From a virus: a stretch of 24,776 bases of DNA. Every line of letters begins with the position of its first letter. The first letter of the stretch is position 1. Positions 6,909-24,775 of this stretch are shown here, one piece after another. The translations under genes and the position numbers were made by a program. Location: IMG/VR virus record IMGVR_UViG_3300046451_000578, positions 1 through 24,776 of that record, one strand, 5' to 3'. Below the pieces are notes generated by a model. That model ran no database searches, was not told the DNA's origin, and was given only the letters and a program-made list of their open reading frames with translations.

Positions 6909-8080
6909 TGCCAGACCGTTCCGACATATCGCCCCTCTCAATTACTGATGGCAAAATCAGTAAGGCGGCGAAGATTGACCCAACCAAGTTGGCTCCTGCC
7001 ACTTCGGGGCAAGTGTTGATTGCTGGAACGGATGGTAAGTTTAGGCCGGGAAATTTAGTAACAACTTCCAGCGGCGACACCGTTGCCCAAGGGCCAGCAG
7101 GCCCACCGGGCGCAACTGGATCACAGGGAGCTACTGGCGCAACCGGAACAACTGGAGCAGCGGGAACAGACGCCAGTATAACGGAGGCAACGGTTAATGC
7201 TGCTGGTGCGGTGATGCACACGGACGTTCCAGATAGTGATACCGGATTTATTAAGAGAACTGGAGCCGCAACTTATGACGTTGACAACAACAACTATTAT
7301 ACCGAAGCCGAAGCGGACGCACTCAACACGGCCATAGTTGAGGGATACACCTCCCAGCTTGGCACTATGGCAATCAATTTAGTTATAGGGTTGGCCGGTA
7401 AGTCCGCAACGGGACACGACCATGCCGCTTCAGAAATAACCAGTGGTACTCTCCACGCTGATCGGTACACCAACACAACCTACACCGCCGACGATGGAAT
7501 TTCTCTAGCGGGAACTGCTTTTAGTGTAGCAGCAGGAACAGGATTAACTCAAAACGGAAACGGACTTGAGTTAAACCTGCAAGGAGTTGGTGAAGAAGCC
7601 ATTAGAGTTGACCAAGACTACCTTGTGTTTTTAGATGGTGGAGCAACAGGGGCGGCTAAAAAAGAATCTTTTGCAGACTTGGCAACCGCAATGGCGGGGA
7701 CTGGGTTAACTGCAAGTTCGGGGGAATTAGTCGTATCAACTGGAACTACTGGAAGCACTGTTGCCACAGGAGATCAAGGGTTTGATGTTCACAAATACAC
7801 TCGGACAATTACTTGGGGAACTCCCATAACGGATCACGTTACTTACGACACAGACGTAGCCACAGTAACGCACGGGTTAGATACAGAATTTATTACAGTA
7901 TCTGTTTTAGATGTTAGTGGCCGAACTACTGAATCGGGAGCAAAAGGTTTTGTTGATATAGATTCTATATGCAGGATAACTGTTGTCGATTCCACCAAAA
8001 TTAAAATATCGTGGTTTCCAGCCGATTCGGGAACAACTTCGCAAACAGGATATGATTTCAAGTTAACCGTTATCGGATGA
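6908..8080 (+). CDS. Tail fibre protein with collagen-like stretch
   Basis: 390 residues. It opens with SDISPLSITDGKISKAAKID, the same shaft-type repeat as in the preceding fibre. At about residues 63-85 there is a collagen-like run of Gly-X-Y triplets (GPAGPPGATGSQGATGATG), which in phages usually forms a trimeric stalk. An acidic Asn/Tyr segment (DVDNNNYYTEAEADAL) and repeats around GISLAGTAFSVAAGTGLTQN follow. The C-terminal ~110 residues form a beta-domain (VTHGLDTEFITVSVLD; IKISWFPADSG) resembling distal fibre domains. It overlaps both neighbours by 1-4 bases. The fibre call is solid; the exact adsorption role is inferred. Confidence 0.75.
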   Translation: MPDRSDISPLSITDGKISKAAKIDPTKLAPATSGQVLIAGTDGKFRPGNLVTTSSGDTVAQGPAGPPGATGSQGATGATGTTGAAGTDASITEATVNAAGAVMHTDVPDSDTGFIKRTGAATYDVDNNNYYTEAEADALNTAIVEGYTSQLGTMAINLVIGLAGKSATGHDHAASEITSGTLHADRYTNTTYTADDGISLAGTAFSVAAGTGLTQNGNGLELNLQGVGEEAIRVDQDYLVFLDGGATGAAKKESFADLATAMAGTGLTASSGELVVSTGTTGSTVATGDQGFDVHKYTRTITWGTPITDHVTYDTDVATVTHGLDTEFITVSVLDVSGRTTESGAKGFVDIDSICRITVVDSTKIKISWFPADSGTTSQTGYDFKLTVIG

Positions 8081-10816: not shown

Positions 10817-13800
10817 ATGCCCATTATAAAAATAGAAGGGGTTGGCCGCGCCCAGTTTCCAGACACGATGGAGCGGGACGAGATTGAAGCGGCTATTCAG
10901 CTTCGCTACGGGAAGCACCTAAACAAGTTACGCCAGCAAAAACGCGAAGCCGAGTTCCAGCAAGCCCAAGAGGCTGCTCAAAAAGTTGCCGACGAACAGG
11001 GTATTTGGGATAGCTTCACTGAAGGTATGGGGCGGGCGAAGGATGATTTCATTCTTGGCAAGACCCTACTGGAACTCGACCACGCCGACGCTCAAGAACT
11101 CCTAGAAGAAGAATACCGAAACTGGAAGATCACGCCGCGAGCCGACGAGGCCGATATGTTAAGTGTGCGTGGTATGGGGAATCTGTTCGGTGAGGCAGGA
11201 GTTACTATCGCCCCCACCATTGGTGCGGGATTGGGCGCGGGCGCATTAACAACTCCACTTGGAGGACTCATCACCGCCGGGGCCACCGCCACTGGAATCC
11301 AAGCCACCTCCGCAAAAGGCGCAACTTTCCGAAACGACTACATCAACCTACGCCACCAACAAAACATGGAGGGCGCGGATGACCCAAGTACGGCATACGA
11401 AACCGCCCGCGACACCTCGAACAAAGCCGCCATGATTGCTGGTGGAATTGCAGCGGCATCCACGGCCATTCCAGTTGGCAAGTTTATCAAGCCCGGCAGC
11501 ACCGTTGGCCGCACCGTTGGGAAAAAGGTTGGGGCAGAAGTCGCATTCGATACCGGCTTGGGCGCAGCAGAATCCATATCCAGCGATGTGTACGCGGAGG
11601 CGCAAGGGGTTGAGCGAGGAAACATTCTGGAGAATGCACTTCGTAGTGCCGCCGGGGAGGCTTTAATTGGTGGGCCATTTTCAGTGTTTCATGGGCGCGG
11701 GTATCTGCAAGAAGCCAGAGCAGAACGAGCGAGGCAGTATGTGGATGCACAAATACAACCCCCAACGCAACTTGCGCTTCCAGCCCCGCCAGTAAGGCTT
11801 GGACTACCCGGCCCTCCAACACCGGCTGGATTATTAACCGGCCCCGGCATTGATCCAGCACGAAGATTGCCCGGCCCCGACACACCAACCCCCATGATAC
11901 TGGACGGCCCCATCATTGATGCGGACACGGGGAAAGTTTTAGATGTGTCGTTGGAACCAGATGCGCCGATTGCTTTGCTGGACGAACGCGGCAACGTCAT
12001 CAATCGGGGAGTGGAAAATGATGCGGGCCGCATTGCAGCACTGGACATTGAGGCGAAGTTCGATGAACGAATCTCCAACAAGCGCACCAATCCAGAGAGC
12101 GGCAAGCTAGGCTTTAGACGAACCGCCGAGGACTTTATCGACACAAAGCCCCGTGAGCCTGACGTAAATGCGCCGGTTCCAGAGGCTCCCCGCGAACTCG
12201 CGCCGACAGCACCGCTAGAGCCGCCGACAACTCGGACTTTTCAGGAGGGGCATGAAGCTGTTTTTTCAACCTTTAAGGTAACGCAAGAAGCCGCCGATTT
12301 TTACAATGAAGGTGCAACTGAAACCACAATAGCTTCACCGAACGGGCGCATAAAAATAGCAAGCGGTGTGGCCAATTCTCCTAACAAAAATTCAGTTGTT
12401 GATTTTGTCGTTCCAGAAGGGAAACGAGGGCAGGGGCATGGGAATGCTTTAATGGCGAAAGCCGTTGAAATGTTTCCAGAACTAGGGGGGCAAGTGTCTT
12501 CTTTAGCGGCCCTTAAAGTTGCCTACGATGTGGGGAGGCGGCCCGCAACAAAACCAGAGGCTACTTGGGAGGCTTCTAAAGATATGTTCGAAGAAGCGGG
12601 GTCGATTAACATGAAAACCCCCCCAGAACCCAAAGTCGATAAAGGCAAACAACTACTTTTCGAGTTCCAAGAAGCAGTCAAAGACCTTGGAGGCCGCGTC
12701 GGCATGGGCGTCGATCCCATTGCCACCTACAAAGTTTTCAAAACGATGGTCAAAATGGCCGCGTACTGGAGTGCAAACAAAGTTAAGTCTGCCGCTGAAT
12801 TTGCAAAGCGCATTGGAGTCAAGTTGACTGAAGCCGTGAAGCAAGCGTGGGCCGATGGCAGCACGGGAGTTGCGCGGACTCCAGCCGAAATACCACAGGC
12901 AACCGTGGATGACATATCGGGGCGAGGTAAACCAAGCCGCGAAACCGCAACTCGCCGCACTCTCGGCCAGATTGTCAGCGACCACATCGACGCAGCCAAG
13001 AGAAGGCTGGAACTGGATGACACAGACTCCAAGGCGAACGAAGTTATCCGCAAACTGGTGGATAGGTTCGTTGACTTGAAAATCCTCCAGCGACTAATAA
13101 CGGCTGGAAAGAAAATCCCCGACACCATGAACGCATACCTCCACATGGAGTTGTTGTCGGATCGTGTTGGGGCTGCGCTGACAAAACTGCGATCAGATGT
13201 GCTAGACCCGATGGTGGTGAGGATGAAGGAACTCAACCTGTCTGACGCCGACCTTCATTTATATCTCCACGCCCGCCACGCCCATGAGGCGAACAAGCGT
13301 ATGTCGGAAATACGCGACGATATGCCAGACGGTGGCAGTGGCATGACGAACAAAGCCGCCGAGGATCACATTACGAGATTCCAGCAGGAAGGTAAGTTGC
13401 CCGGTCTTCAAGAGATTGAGAAAACTGTTCGTGCCTTGACGCAATCGAAGCTCGACCTCGAACTGGAAGGTGGACTCATCGACGAGGCCAACCACCAAAG
13501 ACTTTCCACCTACTACGAACGCTATGTGCCGCTGAACAGGGAAGGCGAACACTCCGACCACATCGAAAGCGGGAACAGCACATTTAAAGGTCACAAAAAA
13601 CGAGTAGGCAGCGGCAAAGATGTGGTGGATATTACATCAAATCTGTTCGCCCAATACTCCAACGCGATTGAGCAAGTGGAGCGCAACCGCGCAATGGCCG
13701 CGCTGGAACAACTCATCCAGAAATACCCGACCGAAGTTATTTCCAGAGCGAAACCCAAAATGGTTCCAGACTTCGGCCCCGATGGGAAGTTAACTTCCAG

Positions 13801-15571
13801 AGTCGATCCATACTGGAAGTCCGCCGACGACATTGTAAGCTACTGGATTGCCGGGGAACAAAAGTTCCTCCAAGTCAACAACCCGGCCCTCGCCCGCAAC
13901 CTCAAGAACATGGGGTATGGGTCAACCAACGCATTCATCCGAGCCTTCGGCGCGGGCAACCGTTTTCTTGCATTGGTCAACACGCAACTCGCACCTAGTT
14001 TTGTCATACCCAACTTTCTGCGCGATCTCCAGACGGCGAAAATCAACATGGCCGCAGAAGATGTCGAAGCCCTGCGAACCAACATCTTGCGGAGTGTGCC
14101 AAAAGCCTTCCGCGCAGCGTGGAAAGCGGAGGTTGGCGTGAAGGGGAAGAAATCCTACGAAGGAGTTGAGGGCCAATACTATAAGGAGTTTGTAGAAGTT
14201 GGAGGCAAGATTGAATTTTTCGGGTTGAAAGATATTGCTTCGTACAAGAAGCGAATCCAGCAGGGGTTGAAGGATCAGTCCAAGCCAGAGAAAGCCATTC
14301 GGTTCTTACTGGACAAGGCGGGCAGTCTTAACGCCACCGTCGAAAACACGATGCGCCTGTCCGTGTATGCCAATGCCCGTGAGGCTGGACTATCCAAGAT
14401 GCAAGCGGCGAGCCTCGCCAAAAACGTCACAGTCAATTTTTCCAGAAAAGGCGAGTGGTCGAGTGGGCTAAATAGTTGGTTCCTGTTTTTCAATGCAGGA
14501 GTGCAGGGAAGCTATCGCATGGCGCAAGCAATCCAAAGTCCGAAGGTGCAGAAGATCGTTGGGGGCGTTGCGGCGTTTGCAGTCGCACAGGATTTTCTCA
14601 ACCAAATGATCTCGGACGAGGACGAAGACGGCGAATCCTTTTACAACAAAATTCCAGAACACGTTCGGGAACGGAACATGATTGTTATGTCGCCATTCGG
14701 CGGCAAGGATTATATCAAGATTCCAATGCCCTACGGCTACAACGTGTTTCATTACGCTGGAACCAATATGTCCAGAATGTTACGGGGGGAGATATCCGCT
14801 GGGGAAAATGTCGCGCACACATTCAACTCCACGCTCAACGCATTCAATCCTATCGGCGGGGCGAGTGACCTGTTCAGCATGGCTGGACTAGCGCGGGCTG
14901 CAACGCCCGACATATTTAATCCTCTGGTGGAGTTACCGAGTAACAAGGATTGGAAAGACACTCCAATTTATCCAGCCCAAAATCCGTTTGATACATATGA
15001 GAAACCGTGGTCGCAGCGATATTTCTCTAGTGTTTCCGCCCCTTCTAAATTTATCACAGACAAGCTAAACCGAATCACCGGAGGAACAGAAATCCAGAGT
15101 GGACTTGTGGATTTGAGTCCAGAAACACTCGACCATTTGTTTTCCCATTTTTTCGGCAGCGTAGGCAAGGACGCATTGCGACCTTTCACTGGAGAAGGCA
15201 TCAATAAACTTCCAGTGGTGCAACGCTTTGTTGGTGGGCAAACAATTTATTACGACCAAGAAAACTATTACAAACTACGCAGCGAAGCCTTCCAAGCCGA
15301 CGATCAGATAAAGGCACACAAGGCTCGCGGCGAAGTCCAAAAACTCAAAACGTATTTGAACGAGGCAACCCCACTCCGCAAAATACTACCCCGCATCAAA
15401 GATACGGATAAAAAGATTCGGGAATTCAACCAGAAAATTCGTGTGCTGGAAGCCAGCGCAAATCTTGACGAGGCTGAAAAAACCGAACGAGTGGGAAAAC
15501 TCAAGGAACGAAAAGTCCAGTTGATGAAGCTCGCTCGTAAACGCTTTCTCCTCCTCACTGGCAATGAATAG
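10817..15571 (+). CDS. Giant internal virion / polyvalent ejection protein with LPD38-like region and GNAT-like motif
   Basis: 1584 residues, in the position of T7 gp16 (1318 residues), whose product is ejected ahead of the DNA. Order of visible parts: an N-terminal PIIKIEGVGRAQFPDTM motif typical of phage polyvalent proteins; Gly/Ala-rich hydrophobic stretches at ~130-165 and ~195-255; a Pro-rich linker at ~315-375; an embedded acetyltransferase-like segment at ~490-576 with VPEGKRGQGHGNALM, resembling the acetyl-CoA loop of GNAT enzymes; a helical repeat segment at ~610-690; and an LPD38-like region at ~1040-1330 (FVIPNFLRDLQTAK; NVTVNFSRKGEW; WFLFFNAGVQGSYRMAQAI). A Lys/Arg/Glu-rich helical tail follows. 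No lytic transglycosylase active site was recognised. The GNAT part may be inactive. Confidence 0.72.
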   Translation: MPIIKIEGVGRAQFPDTMERDEIEAAIQLRYGKHLNKLRQQKREAEFQQAQEAAQKVADEQGIWDSFTEGMGRAKDDFILGKTLLELDHADAQELLEEEYRNWKITPRADEADMLSVRGMGNLFGEAGVTIAPTIGAGLGAGALTTPLGGLITAGATATGIQATSAKGATFRNDYINLRHQQNMEGADDPSTAYETARDTSNKAAMIAGGIAAASTAIPVGKFIKPGSTVGRTVGKKVGAEVAFDTGLGAAESISSDVYAEAQGVERGNILENALRSAAGEALIGGPFSVFHGRGYLQEARAERARQYVDAQIQPPTQLALPAPPVRLGLPGPPTPAGLLTGPGIDPARRLPGPDTPTPMILDGPIIDADTGKVLDVSLEPDAPIALLDERGNVINRGVENDAGRIAALDIEAKFDERISNKRTNPESGKLGFRRTAEDFIDTKPREPDVNAPVPEAPRELAPTAPLEPPTTRTFQEGHEAVFSTFKVTQEAADFYNEGATETTIASPNGRIKIASGVANSPNKNSVVDFVVPEGKRGQGHGNALMAKAVEMFPELGGQVSSLAALKVAYDVGRRPATKPEATWEASKDMFEEAGSINMKTPPEPKVDKGKQLLFEFQEAVKDLGGRVGMGVDPIATYKVFKTMVKMAAYWSANKVKSAAEFAKRIGVKLTEAVKQAWADGSTGVARTPAEIPQATVDDISGRGKPSRETATRRTLGQIVSDHIDAAKRRLELDDTDSKANEVIRKLVDRFVDLKILQRLITAGKKIPDTMNAYLHMELLSDRVGAALTKLRSDVLDPMVVRMKELNLSDADLHLYLHARHAHEANKRMSEIRDDMPDGGSGMTNKAAEDHITRFQQEGKLPGLQEIEKTVRALTQSKLDLELEGGLIDEANHQRLSTYYERYVPLNREGEHSDHIESGNSTFKGHKKRVGSGKDVVDITSNLFAQYSNAIEQVERNRAMAALEQLIQKYPTEVISRAKPKMVPDFGPDGKLTSRVDPYWKSADDIVSYWIAGEQKFLQVNNPALARNLKNMGYGSTNAFIRAFGAGNRFLALVNTQLAPSFVIPNFLRDLQTAKINMAAEDVEALRTNILRSVPKAFRAAWKAEVGVKGKKSYEGVEGQYYKEFVEVGGKIEFFGLKDIASYKKRIQQGLKDQSKPEKAIRFLLDKAGSLNATVENTMRLSVYANAREAGLSKMQAASLAKNVTVNFSRKGEWSSGLNSWFLFFNAGVQGSYRMAQAIQSPKVQKIVGGVAAFAVAQDFLNQMISDEDEDGESFYNKIPEHVRERNMIVMSPFGGKDYIKIPMPYGYNVFHYAGTNMSRMLRGEISAGENVAHTFNSTLNAFNPIGGASDLFSMAGLARAATPDIFNPLVELPSNKDWKDTPIYPAQNPFDTYEKPWSQRYFSSVSAPSKFITDKLNRITGGTEIQSGLVDLSPETLDHLFSHFFGSVGKDALRPFTGEGINKLPVVQRFVGGQTIYYDQENYYKLRSEAFQADDQIKAHKARGEVQKLKTYLNEATPLRKILPRIKDTDKKIREFNQKIRVLEASANLDEAEKTERVGKLKERKVQLMKLARKRFLLLTGNE

Positions 15572-19878: not shown

Positions 19879-21603
19879 ATGATAGCTATAGATTTCGAGA
19901 CATATTACGACGCCGAATGCACCGTTAAGGGACTCGGCCCCGATGCCTATTGCCGTCATCCAAAATTTGATCCGTACATGGTGTCGCTGTACGGAGATGG
20001 CATTGACTATGTTGGGCCGACGCAAGATGCGCCTTGGTGCGATATTCCAGCCGACGCACCGTTCGTGGCGCACAATGCGGCGTTCGATTCCACGGTGTTC
20101 GAGGCGGCACAGCGCATGGGCTACATCCCCGGCGACTTAACCCCAACATGGGATTGCTCCGCAAATCTCGCCGTGTATGTCCAATGTCCGCGCAATCTCA
20201 AAGGGTTCGCGGAACAAATGTTGGGGGTGAAACCTGACAAATCGGTACGGGACAACATGAAGGGCAAGCTCCCCGCTGACCTCGATAAAACCGAACTCAA
20301 AGCCCTGCTCGAATACGCCCGCTATGACTCCGTTTATTGTCACGAACTATGGCGGCTATATGAAAAGTATTGGCCTTACCATGAAAGAATTTTAGCCCGC
20401 CACACAATGACAAGCGGGCAGCGCGGCATTCAAATCGACAAACCGAAACTGGATGCCGGGGTCGAGACACTTTATGAGATCAAGGAAGCGGCGGGGAAGA
20501 AGGTTCCGTGGAGCGCGGACGAGGAACCCATCAATTCCCTTAAACAACTTAAAATTTATTGCGCCAAGGAAGGCATACCGGCCCCACTCAGCACGAACCA
20601 GAACGAACCCGAATGTGTGGAGTGGGAGGCCGAGTATGGTGACAAATATCCAGTGGTGGCTGCGCTGCGCGATTGGCGAAAATCCAACCGGCTACTCCGA
20701 CTATTTCAGACCGTCAATACTCGACTGCGCGAGGATGGAACAATGCCGTTTGGCCTCAAATACTTTGGCGCAACCCTAACGGGGCGTTGGTCAGGCGATA
20801 CCGGCCTAAATATGCAGAATCTCCCACGGGGCGAGAGCTTCGGGATCGACACTCGCAGCTTGTTCATTCCACGGCCCGGTAAGAAATTTATCATTTGTGA
20901 TCTGGCGCAGATCGAACCCCGCGTCATGGCGTGGCTCACCGACAATACTGAAATGATGGACTACGTTCGCAAAGGCGAGGACATCTACACGGCCCATGCA
21001 CTATCCACAATGGGACTGGATAAGGTGGACAAGCAAGCCCGGCAACTCGCCAAGATTCGAGTGCTGGGGTTGGGGTATGGGTGCGGGGCCGCTCGATTCA
21101 AGCAGATCGCCGATAATTGGGGCGTGACGCTATCCAAGGACGAGGCCGAACACACCGTCAAGGAGTATCGCCGCACGAATCCAGAAATTAAAAACTTTTG
21201 GAGACAACGGGAACGAGAATTCAAAAAAGATGTTAACCAAAACCACTATTATGAACTCCCAAGCGGGCGGCACATTTCGTACTTCAATGTGTTGCACAAA
21301 AATGATCAGTGGTTTGCGTCGATCACAAGAGGCGCAACTCCACGGCACTGGTACGGCGGGAAGTTGGTCGAGAATGTAGTGCAAGCCACCGCCCGCGACG
21401 TATTCGCTGAACACTACTACAACATTGTCCGTTCGGGGTTCGAGGTTTTATGGACAGTCCACGATGAAATCATTGTGGAGGTGGACGAGGACGATACACA
21501 AGCCTGTGCCGAAATTCAGGATTTAATGAGCCGCACTCCAGAGTGGATTAAAGGATGCCCCGTCGCGGCAGAGGCGCACGAGGCGAGCGCGTATACGAAA
21601 TGA
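19879..21603 (+). CDS. Family A DNA polymerase with 3'-5' exonuclease
   Basis: 574 residues; the phage replicative polymerase. Proofreading domain: Asp5/Glu7 (IDFETYY), Asn66/Asp70 (AHNAAFD) and Tyr146/Asp150 (YARYD) are all present. Polymerase domain: GRWSGDTGLNMQNLPRG (302-318), motif A with Asp341 (DLAQIEPRVM), an O-helix with Arg388, Lys392, Leu396 and Tyr400 (ARQLAKIRVLGLGYG), and motif C with His528-Asp529-Glu530 (TVHDEIIVEV). Leu396 corresponds to E. coli Pol I F762, a form associated with temperate phages. There is no 5'-3' exonuclease domain. The ATG is used because the first exonuclease motif begins at residue 4; no SD is visible. Confidence 0.95.
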   Translation: MIAIDFETYYDAECTVKGLGPDAYCRHPKFDPYMVSLYGDGIDYVGPTQDAPWCDIPADAPFVAHNAAFDSTVFEAAQRMGYIPGDLTPTWDCSANLAVYVQCPRNLKGFAEQMLGVKPDKSVRDNMKGKLPADLDKTELKALLEYARYDSVYCHELWRLYEKYWPYHERILARHTMTSGQRGIQIDKPKLDAGVETLYEIKEAAGKKVPWSADEEPINSLKQLKIYCAKEGIPAPLSTNQNEPECVEWEAEYGDKYPVVAALRDWRKSNRLLRLFQTVNTRLREDGTMPFGLKYFGATLTGRWSGDTGLNMQNLPRGESFGIDTRSLFIPRPGKKFIICDLAQIEPRVMAWLTDNTEMMDYVRKGEDIYTAHALSTMGLDKVDKQARQLAKIRVLGLGYGCGAARFKQIADNWGVTLSKDEAEHTVKEYRRTNPEIKNFWRQREREFKKDVNQNHYYELPSGRHISYFNVLHKNDQWFASITRGATPRHWYGGKLVENVVQATARDVFAEHYYNIVRSGFEVLWTVHDEIIVEVDEDDTQACAEIQDLMSRTPEWIKGCPVAAEAHEASAYTK

Positions 21604-22237: not shown

Positions 22238-23071
22238 ATGCCAACAACTCTCCCTCCACGGATAAAAAATTGCCCTTCCAGCGGTGCGGGTGTTCACAGG
22301 TGGATATTTCATGCCGTTTGTGTGTTGGATAAAGCGGGCTACGCCGATGCCGACATCGAGGAATGGGTTGGAAAACATTCCAGTCGATCACTCCAGCCGG
22401 GCGAGGTTCAGAATGCCCTCAAAACAATTCGCAATTCAATTGTGAAGGTGCGCCCCCGCTGGCCTTTCCCCAACCCCATTGACACTAAACGAATAGCCAA
22501 CCTCGGCGGCGGCATGGATGCACTGAGAAGAACGTCAGTGGTCGAGTGTGCGGATGCCGGGGATGCGCTCCAGCAATTATTCGAGGGCGACCCGCTACTT
22601 TGTTGCGGCCTAGACTCCAGAGAATTTGCCACCGAACCGTTGTCGCGCTGGATAAACCTCTCCCAACTCCAATTCATAGTTCCGTCCCCGATGTCCGATA
22701 AGTGGGGCGAAACTCAAGCGGGCAAACGCAGCCAGCATACTCTCTCCAACACCGGGCCTCGTCACTATCTAGTTGTGGAATTCGACGAAGGCTCTCACGA
22801 CTCCCACGCCTCAATAATCCAACACCTAGCCGCCGCTATGCCTCTCTGCATGGCCGTGGACTCTGGAGGGAAGTCGATTCATGCGTGGTTCGATGTACGA
22901 GAGCGGAGTGAAGCCTCCACGCGAAAATTTTTCCAGCTTGCTTGTCAACTCGGCGCAGACCCCGCCACTTGGACAAAATCTCAATTCGTAAGAATGCCTC
23001 AAGGTCGCCGGGCAAATGGCAACCTACAAAAAATAATCCACTTCAACCCCCCAAAATATGCTCCCTTTTGA
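22238..23071 (+). CDS. AEP-like primase with helical N-terminal domain
   Basis: 277 residues. Residues 1-75 form a helical domain (VHRWIFHAVCVLDKAGYADA; LQPGEVQNALKTIR) like primase-associated helical modules. From ~170 there is an archaeo-eukaryotic-primase-like core: HYLVVEFDEGSHD (Glu181, Asp183), MAVDSGGKSIHAWFDV (S-I-H, His215) and FVRMPQGRRANGNLQKI (Arg252). These match motif I, the sxH motif and a later basic motif of AEP enzymes, although the region is short. It overlaps the helicase gene by 14 bases, so the two are coupled and likely make a primase-helicase pair. A degenerate or non-catalytic primase remains possible. Confidence 0.65.
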   Translation: MPTTLPPRIKNCPSSGAGVHRWIFHAVCVLDKAGYADADIEEWVGKHSSRSLQPGEVQNALKTIRNSIVKVRPRWPFPNPIDTKRIANLGGGMDALRRTSVVECADAGDALQQLFEGDPLLCCGLDSREFATEPLSRWINLSQLQFIVPSPMSDKWGETQAGKRSQHTLSNTGPRHYLVVEFDEGSHDSHASIIQHLAAAMPLCMAVDSGGKSIHAWFDVRERSEASTRKFFQLACQLGADPATWTKSQFVRMPQGRRANGNLQKIIHFNPPKYAPF

Positions 23072-24329
23072 AATATTCCACCATCCCGTTTCGGGCCGAT
23101 TCTTCATGCGCGACAACCGCGAACGCTTCCTATCCCTCAATAGCGATGCTGTTAAGCGGCAGTTGAAGTTGCGCGGGGTTCGAGGGTCGAAGCAGCAGGA
23201 TGAAAACATGAGTGACGTTGACCAAGTGCTGGCTGAAGCCACCCATGAGGCGTCGTGCGAATATGCCGGGCCGCTCGCAGGCCACATGGCTGGCGTTATA
23301 AAATTTAAGGGAACTAGGGTGCTGGTTACGGATGATCCCGTCATCATTAAAGGCGAGCCGCGCCCGTTTCCGATGATCGAGAAAATTCTCACCGAACTAT
23401 TTCATGCAGTTGACCCGGATCAAATCCAGCACGTTTTTGGTTGGCTCCACATGGCGCGGTTGATGATGAAAGCGGGGAAGCCCATGCCGGGGCAAGCACT
23501 CGTTATGGCTGGGCCAAGAAATTGTGGCAAAAATCTATTCCAAGACCTCATCACTGAAATGCTAGGAGGCCGCGTTGCGAGGCCCTATCGCTACATGACG
23601 GGGAAAAGCGAATTCAACGCTGATCTATTCCAAGCGGAACATCTGATGATAGCCGATGAAGCCCCCTATCAAGACATAGCGTCGAGGCGGCTGTTCGGGA
23701 CTCGAATTAAGGATTTTGCAGTGAATCAGTTCCAGAGTTGTCATGGTAAACACAAGGACGCGCTCACTCTTGCCCCATGCTGGAGACTAACGGTTTCCAC
23801 AAATGATGAAGCCGAGAATTTGATAATGTTGCCTCCACTTGATAACAGTATCGAGGACAAAATCATGCTATTTAAGGTGGCTCCAGCCAAAATGCCGATG
23901 GACGCTAATTCTCCTGCGGGGCGCGAGGCTTTTTGGAACGGGTTGATGGATGAATTACCGGGTTTTATTTGGTTCGTGGAGAACTATTGCATTCCAGAGG
24001 AACTAAAAGACTCACGTTTCGGCATTAAGGCATATCATCACAAGGATATTGTGGAGATTCTGGAAGATATGGCCCCAGAGGCGAGGCTTTCGGAACTCAT
24101 TGATGTAGTCATCCAGCCGAATGGCAAGCCGTGGCGAGGTACGTTGCAAGACCTCGAAACTCAGCTTTTAGATGACTCCACCTACCGCTCCAGAGTGGAA
24201 AAATTGCTCTCCTATCCAACCGCATTGAAGACTTATATGCGGCGACTCCACCGGGATCGGCCTGACAAATTCGTCCACTCCAAGGTCAACAGCCGAAATC
24301 TTTGGGAGATTAGTGCGCCAGAGCGGTAA
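23058..24329 (+). CDS. SF3-type (D5/DUF5906-like) replicative helicase
   Basis: 423 residues. The ATPase core shows Walker A AGPRNCGKN (Lys158), Walker B LMIADE (Asp200-Glu201) and a motif-C-like STNDE (Asn249) after a polar strand (PCWRLTV), the order expected for viral superfamily 3 helicases. The Walker A ends in Asn rather than Ser/Thr. The N-terminal ~100 residues (FEIFHHPVSGRFFMRDN) resemble the linker domain of primase-helicases. A winged-helix-like tail is possible at ~340-420 (YHHKDIVEIL; YRSRVEKLLSYP). Overlap with the primase gene suggests one complex. The origin candidate lies directly downstream. Confidence 0.82.
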   Translation: MLPFEIFHHPVSGRFFMRDNRERFLSLNSDAVKRQLKLRGVRGSKQQDENMSDVDQVLAEATHEASCEYAGPLAGHMAGVIKFKGTRVLVTDDPVIIKGEPRPFPMIEKILTELFHAVDPDQIQHVFGWLHMARLMMKAGKPMPGQALVMAGPRNCGKNLFQDLITEMLGGRVARPYRYMTGKSEFNADLFQAEHLMIADEAPYQDIASRRLFGTRIKDFAVNQFQSCHGKHKDALTLAPCWRLTVSTNDEAENLIMLPPLDNSIEDKIMLFKVAPAKMPMDANSPAGREAFWNGLMDELPGFIWFVENYCIPEELKDSRFGIKAYHHKDIVEILEDMAPEARLSELIDVVIQPNGKPWRGTLQDLETQLLDDSTYRSRVEKLLSYPTALKTYMRRLHRDRPDKFVHSKVNSRNLWEISAPER

Positions 24330-24358
24330 AAGTCTAGTCCCTTGAGTACCCGAAGGTT

Positions 24359-24414
24359 GGAGTGTTGCGGGAAAACACAGCTCCATGTGTGAAAATCACA
24401 CGCTTAAAATGGAG
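24359..24414 (+). repeat. Nested hairpins with alternative pairing
   Basis: GTGTG AAAAT CACAC (24387-24401) lies inside CTCCAT (24381-24386) and ATGGAG (24409-24414). The same CTCC can instead pair with GGAG at 24359-24362, supported by GTGTT/AACAC in that arm. Two competing folds over one segment suggest RNA-level control or a structured origin flank. No gene is seen here. Confidence 0.45.
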
Positions 24415-24425
24415 GAAACAGACTT

Positions 24426-24523
24426 CCAGCACCCTTAGTACCCACTGTATCCCCTTAATATAGAAAATAGTATTTATATATACAAGTTGGGGTCATGGGT
24501 ACTGAAGGTGCTAAGGGTGCTGG
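24426..24523 (+). repeat. Long inverted repeat around an AT-rich core
   Basis: CCAGCACCCTTAG (24426-24438) is the exact inverse of CTAAGGGTGCTGG (24511-24523). Further in, TACCCA (24439-24444) matches TGGGTA (24496-24501), the right arm having nine extra bases (CTGAAGGTG). CCCC (24451-24454) matches GGGG (24489-24492). The ~34 bases between are almost only A and T. It could form a cruciform. Part of the origin candidate. Confidence 0.8.
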
Positions 24524-24524
24524 A

Positions 24525-24562
24525 GTAAAAAGCCCCGCCCCCCGAAGTGGAGAGGCGAGGCT
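24525..24562 (-). terminator. Rho-independent terminator for the minus-strand gene
   Basis: Read on the minus strand, AGCCTCGCC and GGCGGGGCT (24554-24562 and 24531-24539) pair over eight of nine positions across a 14-base loop, followed by TTTTTAC. The T-run is present only in this direction. It lies 18 bases beyond the stop codon of the minus-strand gene at the right edge. Confidence 0.68.
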
Positions 24563-24580: not shown

Positions 24581-24775
24581 TCAGTCGTTACCACGCGATG
24601 CGTGGAGGTTTAGGAATTGCACAAGACCTTCCTTGCCTTTGCGAATTTCGAGTTTATGCGGGCCACCCCAACCGTTGAAATCTTGTGGGTTACCGTTGGC
24701 ACGATATTTGGCCCGCACTTTGGCTTTGATACTGGAGAGATCAGCTTTTGACTTGGCCCAGTGTCGGACACTCCC
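24581..24775 (-). CDS. 3' end of a minus-strand gene, function unknown (partial)
   Basis: The minus strand has an open frame from the right edge to TGA at 24583-24581, encoding the last 64 residues of a protein. It is basic and helical at first (HWAKSKADLSSIKAKVRAKY), then Gly/Asn-rich (RANGNPQDFNGWGGPHKLEI), ending in LVQFLNLHASRGND. The following terminator supports that it is real. The basic KYR...GW segment faintly recalls small DNA-binding proteins, but this is far too weak to name it. It is the only minus-strand gene seen and converges on the replication operon. Confidence 0.6.
   Translation of the reverse strand, partial: GSVRHWAKSKADLSSIKAKVRAKYRANGNPQDFNGWGGPHKLEIRKGKEGLVQFLNLHASRGND

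Follow-up and report, generated by a model that had tools for sequence, protein, structure and literature searches.

The region directly behind the helicase gene of this phage is very probably its replication origin. Based on sequence comparison, structure prediction and analogy, we assign it to the self-loading-helicase type, resembling the origins of P4 and of the SaPIs (PICIs), and propose that it is read by the wing of the C-terminal helicase domain. The first-pass annotation had already called the region origin-like, and comparative evidence supports this interpretation: the site lies 3′ of the initiator helicase gene, its arrays and A/T core are kept despite sequence turnover, it was unique in the contigs tested, and its units covary with the wing. 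The layout itself is of a known, PICI/SaPI-like kind. Here it is found in an autonomous phage, and the wing-iteron pairing is the most interesting testable part.

The window analyzed is the whole IMG/VR record IMGVR_UViG_3300046451_000578, which is 24,776 bases long and represents a linear piece of a phage genome. No end repeats were found along this length, and the contig ends just past the repeat site. The relevant features are:

19879-21603, family A DNA polymerase gene
22238-23071, + strand, primase-like gene, 277 aa (Pfam AEP-TOTE, E=3.4e-4, under its curated cut-off), overlapping the helicase start
23058-24329, + strand, initiator helicase gene, 423 aa, SF3/D5-like (Pfam DUF5906, PHROG DNA primase)
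24015-24326, + strand, predicted C-terminal winged-helix domain, helicase residues 320-423 (AlphaFold2)
24270-24311, + strand, predicted hairpin of the wing, FVHSKVNSRNLWEI (residues 405-418), hypervariable and proposed to set specificity
24333-24351, - strand, outlying degenerate pair of 9-bp units, GGGTACTCA / AGGGACTAG
24425-24438 and 24511-24524, perfect 14-bp inverted repeat, TCCAGCACCCTTAG / CTAAGGGTGCTGGA
24426-24443, - strand, left iteron array, made up of GGGTACTAA and GGGTGCTGG (9 bp each, order as read from the core outward)
24445-24495, no strand, core separating the two arrays, ~51 bp, A/T-rich (about two-thirds), proposed melting site
24497-24523, + strand, right iteron array, three 9-bp units GGGTACTGA / AGGTGCTAA / GGGTGCTGG
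24581-24775, - strand, small convergent gene, cut by the contig end

Judged by its genes, the replicon is an autonomous phage and not a satellite. It carries its own family A polymerase, and in the relative G008 a major head protein was matched with E 1.4e-35, along with weak terminase and portal matches. The window also encodes tail/virion-like proteins, a tyrosine integrase and PD-(D/E)XK-type nucleases. A 1584-aa protein (10817-15571) resembles very large phage proteins without assigned function and shows a weak DarB-like antirestriction match.

The repeats lie between the helicase stop codon and the convergent small gene. The repeat observation of the first-pass annotation is confirmed, and the first description undersold the feature. 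The perfect inverted repeat is present, with a length of 14 bp instead of 13, and the further inner pairing that had been claimed is found as TACCCA (24439-24444) opposite TGGGTA (24496-24501), which extends the repeat inward. The interior of ~34 almost pure A/T bases corresponds to the stretch at about 24454-24487, which is only part of the full core. The motif GGGTACTnAAGG indeed occurs in three places and both orientations, at 24340-24351 (-), 24432-24443 (-, one mismatch) and 24497-24508 (+). The nine extra, unpaired bases of the right arm, CTGAAGGTG at 24502-24510, are not a partial motif but one whole additional 9-bp unit. The repeats are tandem units of 9 bp with the core GGGTACT/GGGTGCT. 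The inverted-repeat score of the window site was 15.5, compared to a mean of 7.2 and a maximum of 9.0 in 40 dinucleotide shuffles. Single 12-mer matches with up to two mismatches were not above chance in the whole window (6 versus 5.0 expected). The significant feature is the tandem, inverted clustering rather than single motif matches.

The first-pass annotation had placed the site beside primase and helicase genes. The helicase gene is directly 5′ of it, and the primase call rests on the weak AEP match. The primase-like protein has relatives with 57-90% identity (alignment A2). The helicase matched Pfam DUF5906 with E=4e-7, above the cut-off, the PHROG DNA primase with E=2.7e-10, and the papillomavirus E1 helicase weakly. 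Walker A (GPRNCGKN), Walker B (LMIADE) and motif C (RLTVSTNDE) were read by eye, and the SF3 ATPase motifs are invariant or almost so in the helicase alignments (A1/A6). No Toprim domain was matched by Pfam in the window proteins tested, and the AEP-like gene is separate from the helicase gene. A tblastn search of INPHARED with the window helicase, the L161 helicase and the window primase gave no match, the window helicase having no detectable relative among 50,697 phage records, and a solved-structure profile search returned nothing credible. The AlphaFold model of the whole helicase was poor (pLDDT 43), but its C-terminal domain alone was usable: the last 104 residues reached a pLDDT of 82, with the order H-S-H-H-H-S-wing-S. 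In a Foldseek search with this domain all matches were weak (best E 0.07), and many of the top ones were winged-helix proteins. The C-terminal end of the helicase is therefore predicted to be a winged helix. SV40 T-antigen and papillomavirus E1 are SF3 hexamers that assemble at repeats beside an A/T-rich element. Their origin-binding domain is N-terminal (PMC7581432), whereas the DNA-binding domain predicted here is C-terminal.

To see how far the layout is kept, we collected related loci. The helicase scan gave ten viral loci, nine of them with a complete gene (70-93% identity), and in all nine inverted 9-bp arrays surround an A/T core just after the helicase stop codon. A pattern scan with GGGCACT added one true member, L139; its other matches were mostly coding repeats. 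Scans with the primase and with diverse helicases added L160, L161, L162, L164, L178 and L182, and a genome scan 18 MAG loci, whose titles mostly name Verrucomicrobia or its orders, some being labelled Akkermansia and two "uncultured bacterium". Helicase identity to the window was 70-93% where measured for L003-L011 and L139, 49-53% for L160-L164 and L178, and 29-49% for the MAG loci. The inverted repeat scored above all 40 shuffles in 27 of the 34 loci tested. Arrays were weak or absent in L187, L192, L194, L195, L196 and L200; in L185 an inverted repeat was found at +202, and the L197 locus is truncated. The period is 9 bp in nearer relatives and often 8 bp in MAG loci, and the cores mostly measure 40-110 bp with mostly 55-78% A/T. 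The left array starts about 100 bp past the helicase stop codon in the window, compared to 0-60 bp in most relatives; the outlying pair at 24333-24351 corresponds to the extended left arrays of L003 and L004. Unit sequences change between phages (GGGTGCT, GGGCACT, GGGCCCT, AGGCACT, GGGTCAC, TTGCCGCCC, TTGGTATCA), and both arms of one phage change together.

A search for the motif elsewhere, which had been suggested earlier, showed that the tandem units are confined to this site in the window and in eight of the ten relatives covered; in the remaining two the pattern was not matched anywhere. The objection that the motif might be spread before many phage genes thus fails. A GGGTGCT-triple pattern produced 109 matches in viral contigs; nearly all of the 80 readable loci checked were coding repeats of 9-base period, e.g., collagen-like Gly-Ala-X runs, and not origins. 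L003 and L008, both known before, and L067 were the exceptions. The latter, a prophage in an isolate genome, carries tandemly repeated GGGTGCTGC units in either orientation (6973-7235), 5′ and not 3′ of a VapE-like helicase gene. In the L005-L009 group, direct repeats TTAGTCAGTAAT..CGATTACCGACCGATACA follow beyond the array (from about 5460 in L005 and about 5740 in L007). Cumulative GC skew, calculated for seven records, showed no inflection or extremum at the site and mostly rose or fell steadily along the contigs.

The position of the site between convergent genes could also suggest a transcription feature, i.e., a terminator, an attenuator or an autoregulatory operator. A terminator-like element, a GC-rich hairpin with T's after it on the - strand, is present at about 24530-24562. 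This hairpin, which was found in most close relatives, is by its sequence probably the terminator of the convergent small gene, and it is separate from the arrays. The arrays themselves are located downstream of the helicase gene and not at a promoter, lack a T-run and enclose an A/T core of some length; no further copies turned up in the contigs scanned. An Rfam search gave nothing credible and matched no family. We consider a transcriptional function of the arrays highly improbable. The small gene has homologues in nine relatives (35-78% identity), all close to the candidate origin, and gave no match in Pfam and PHROG. Another small hairpin, CTCCATGTGTGAAAATCACACGCTTAAAATGGAG at 24381-24416, lies between the outlying pair and the left array; it has a counterpart in L003 with changes on both sides and none in L004.

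The claim that the repeats match no known origin type did not hold: in layout the site corresponds to PICI/SaPI origins, with overlap to those of P4 and pRN1. In the PICI/SaPI rep-ori systems (SaPIbov1, SaPI1 and E. coli PICIs, with SCCmec Cch2 related), the origin is located directly 3′ of the initiator gene, as is the candidate origin here. SaPI Rep and SCCmec Cch2 helicases use their C-terminal domains to bind iterons located just 3′ of the genes that encode them (PMC7581432); in our phage the predicted winged helix and the wing-iteron covariation would fit a comparable recognition. PICIs and SaPIs are satellites or islands, whereas the replicon described here is an autonomous phage with its own polymerase, and its primase-like protein and helicase are encoded by separate, overlapping genes, unlike in PICI/SaPI. 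In the papers cited here we saw no description of such a covariation. A PICI would be a satellite without capsid genes of its own, but tail/virion matches are present in the window and a head protein in G008; the origin appears PICI-like in its working, and because of the virion-gene matches of G008 we did not file the phage as a PICI. A 2018 paper stated that the organization with two iteron sets is common to no known replicon besides PICIs (PMC6092414), and its presence in autonomous phages challenges this exclusivity. The helicase described here may also be likened to P4 alpha, an initiator helicase that uses a winged helix to bind the repeats of its origin and then unwinds and primes (PMC4234260). 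In P4 alpha, the helicase and a bacterial Toprim-type primase are fused in one protein (PMC4234260), whereas the AEP-like gene is separate here; this comparison covers the protein.

In analogy to SaPI Rep, SCCmec Cch2 and P4 alpha (PMC7581432, PMC4234260, PMC6092414), helicase subunits would dock on each array via the C-terminal winged helix. Its conserved helix would make the general contacts, while the variable bases would be read by the wing. One assembly would form on each array, the two facing in opposite directions; they would then melt the A/T core, from which bidirectional unwinding would begin. The adjacent primase-like protein would prime, and the family A polymerase of the phage would extend.

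An alternative would be an extruded stem-loop of the pRN1 type, in which the initiator recognises paired arms and a large loop instead of tandem units. The pRN1 origin, a 21-nt stem with a 58-nt loop, lies downstream of the gene for an AEP-SF3-winged-helix protein and is required for replication (PMC4234260). pRN1 and Bordetella BIP-1 also combine AEP, SF3 helicase and C-terminal winged helix, and have, as here, an inverted repeat of ~100 bp that lies 3′ of the initiator gene and encloses a large loop (PMC4234260), although in our phage the primase match is weak and the genes are separate. Single-strand folding of the arms gave clearly negative z values (-5 to -9.8; -6.1 for the window site), and the arms of L161 and L162 are long and perfect. 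The pRN1/BIP-1 origin is described as iteron-free (PMC4234260), whereas the arms here consist of tandem 9-bp units. Whole units were gained on one side only (three right versus two left in the window; additional same-strand arrays in L003 and L004), and spacers between the cores are often unpaired while the cores pair (L007 GC,CC versus AG,GC; L003 GC versus TA). Due to the one-sided gain and the unpaired spacers, a pure stem-loop model is unlikely, though the arms can fold.

The self-loading-helicase reading is further supported by the way in which helicase and repeats differ between phages. In the L005-L009 group, the helicase body is nearly frozen, but the last 23 residues, including the wing, are hypervariable. 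Between L007 and L009, one residue differs in 1-401 and ten in 402-424 (Fisher 2.6e-13), whereas 85 synonymous codon differences fall in 1-401 and two in 402-424. The units differ as well, being GGGCACT in L009 and GGGTGCT in L007 and L008. Between L007 and L008, neither the tail nor the unit differs, although the bodies show 80 synonymous differences. For 13 loci, a partial Mantel test of tail against iteron, given body, yielded r=0.44 (p=0.0014 by permutation), with iteron registers set by hand and few independent wing/iteron switches. Wings with NGRN/NSRN pair with TGC/TAC, NSRH/NGRS with CAC, NGRR with CCC and NGQH with AGGCAC. Based on these sequences, the repeats and the DNA-reading tip of the helicase appear to vary in step between phages. 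Since tail and arrays are only 20-100 bp apart, recombination as one block could also yield such a correlation without binding. The pairing makes origin choice by self-loading helicases testable through residue swaps. For an uncultured phage group without INPHARED relatives of the helicase, the analysis as a whole predicts origin, initiator and specificity residues.

Partition, packaging or incompatibility sites might be considered too, bound by another protein and adjacent to the helicase gene only incidentally, as centromeres and packaging sites are likewise built of tandem and inverted repeats. The helicase gene is, however, always adjacent, the change of the units follows the wing and not the body of the helicase, and binding to sites of this kind is known for related proteins (PMC7581432). 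Such a function is very unlikely.

A broader reading, to which we give slightly less than an even chance as a whole, joins recognition, diversification and generality: the wing KxNGRy would set which 9-bp unit serves as origin, wing and origin would diversify together and yield replicons without cross-talk, and the PICI-like layout would be common to SF3-initiator phages in general (Verrucomicrobia phages, BPP-1, phi105, ZoeJ, Acinetobacter 4316) and not a PICI hallmark. In the code proposed as part of it, x=V/I/L with y=N would read GGGTGC/GGGTAC, x=S/T with y=H/S GGGCAC, and y=R GGGCCC, while R to Q would lead to AGG instead of GGG.

In cultured phages, we surveyed the region 3′ of D5/SF3 primase-helicases. 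Acinetobacter 4316, Bacillus phi105 and Mycobacterium ZoeJ have two tandem 9-bp units inverted around a core, each scoring above 15 shuffles; the ZoeJ core has only 48% A/T. In phi105, a phage of B. subtilis, the predicted start would fall about 40-150 bp past gp60. For Wrath and A9Y the layout was unclear, and the BcepC6B record stops too early to tell. In BPP-1 (NC_005357, 26608-26711; L219), 9-bp units (AAACGAGGC), paired in tandem and inverted relative to each other, flank an A/T-rich core that includes the A/T-richest 60-bp stretch of the whole genome. These candidate units are located ~470 nt beyond bbp29. Candidate origins can thus be proposed for cultured laboratory phages, including BPP-1, for which another stem-loop had been drawn next to position 27,177 (PMC4234260); by its sequence, the candidate origin at 26608-26711 is apparently a different site.
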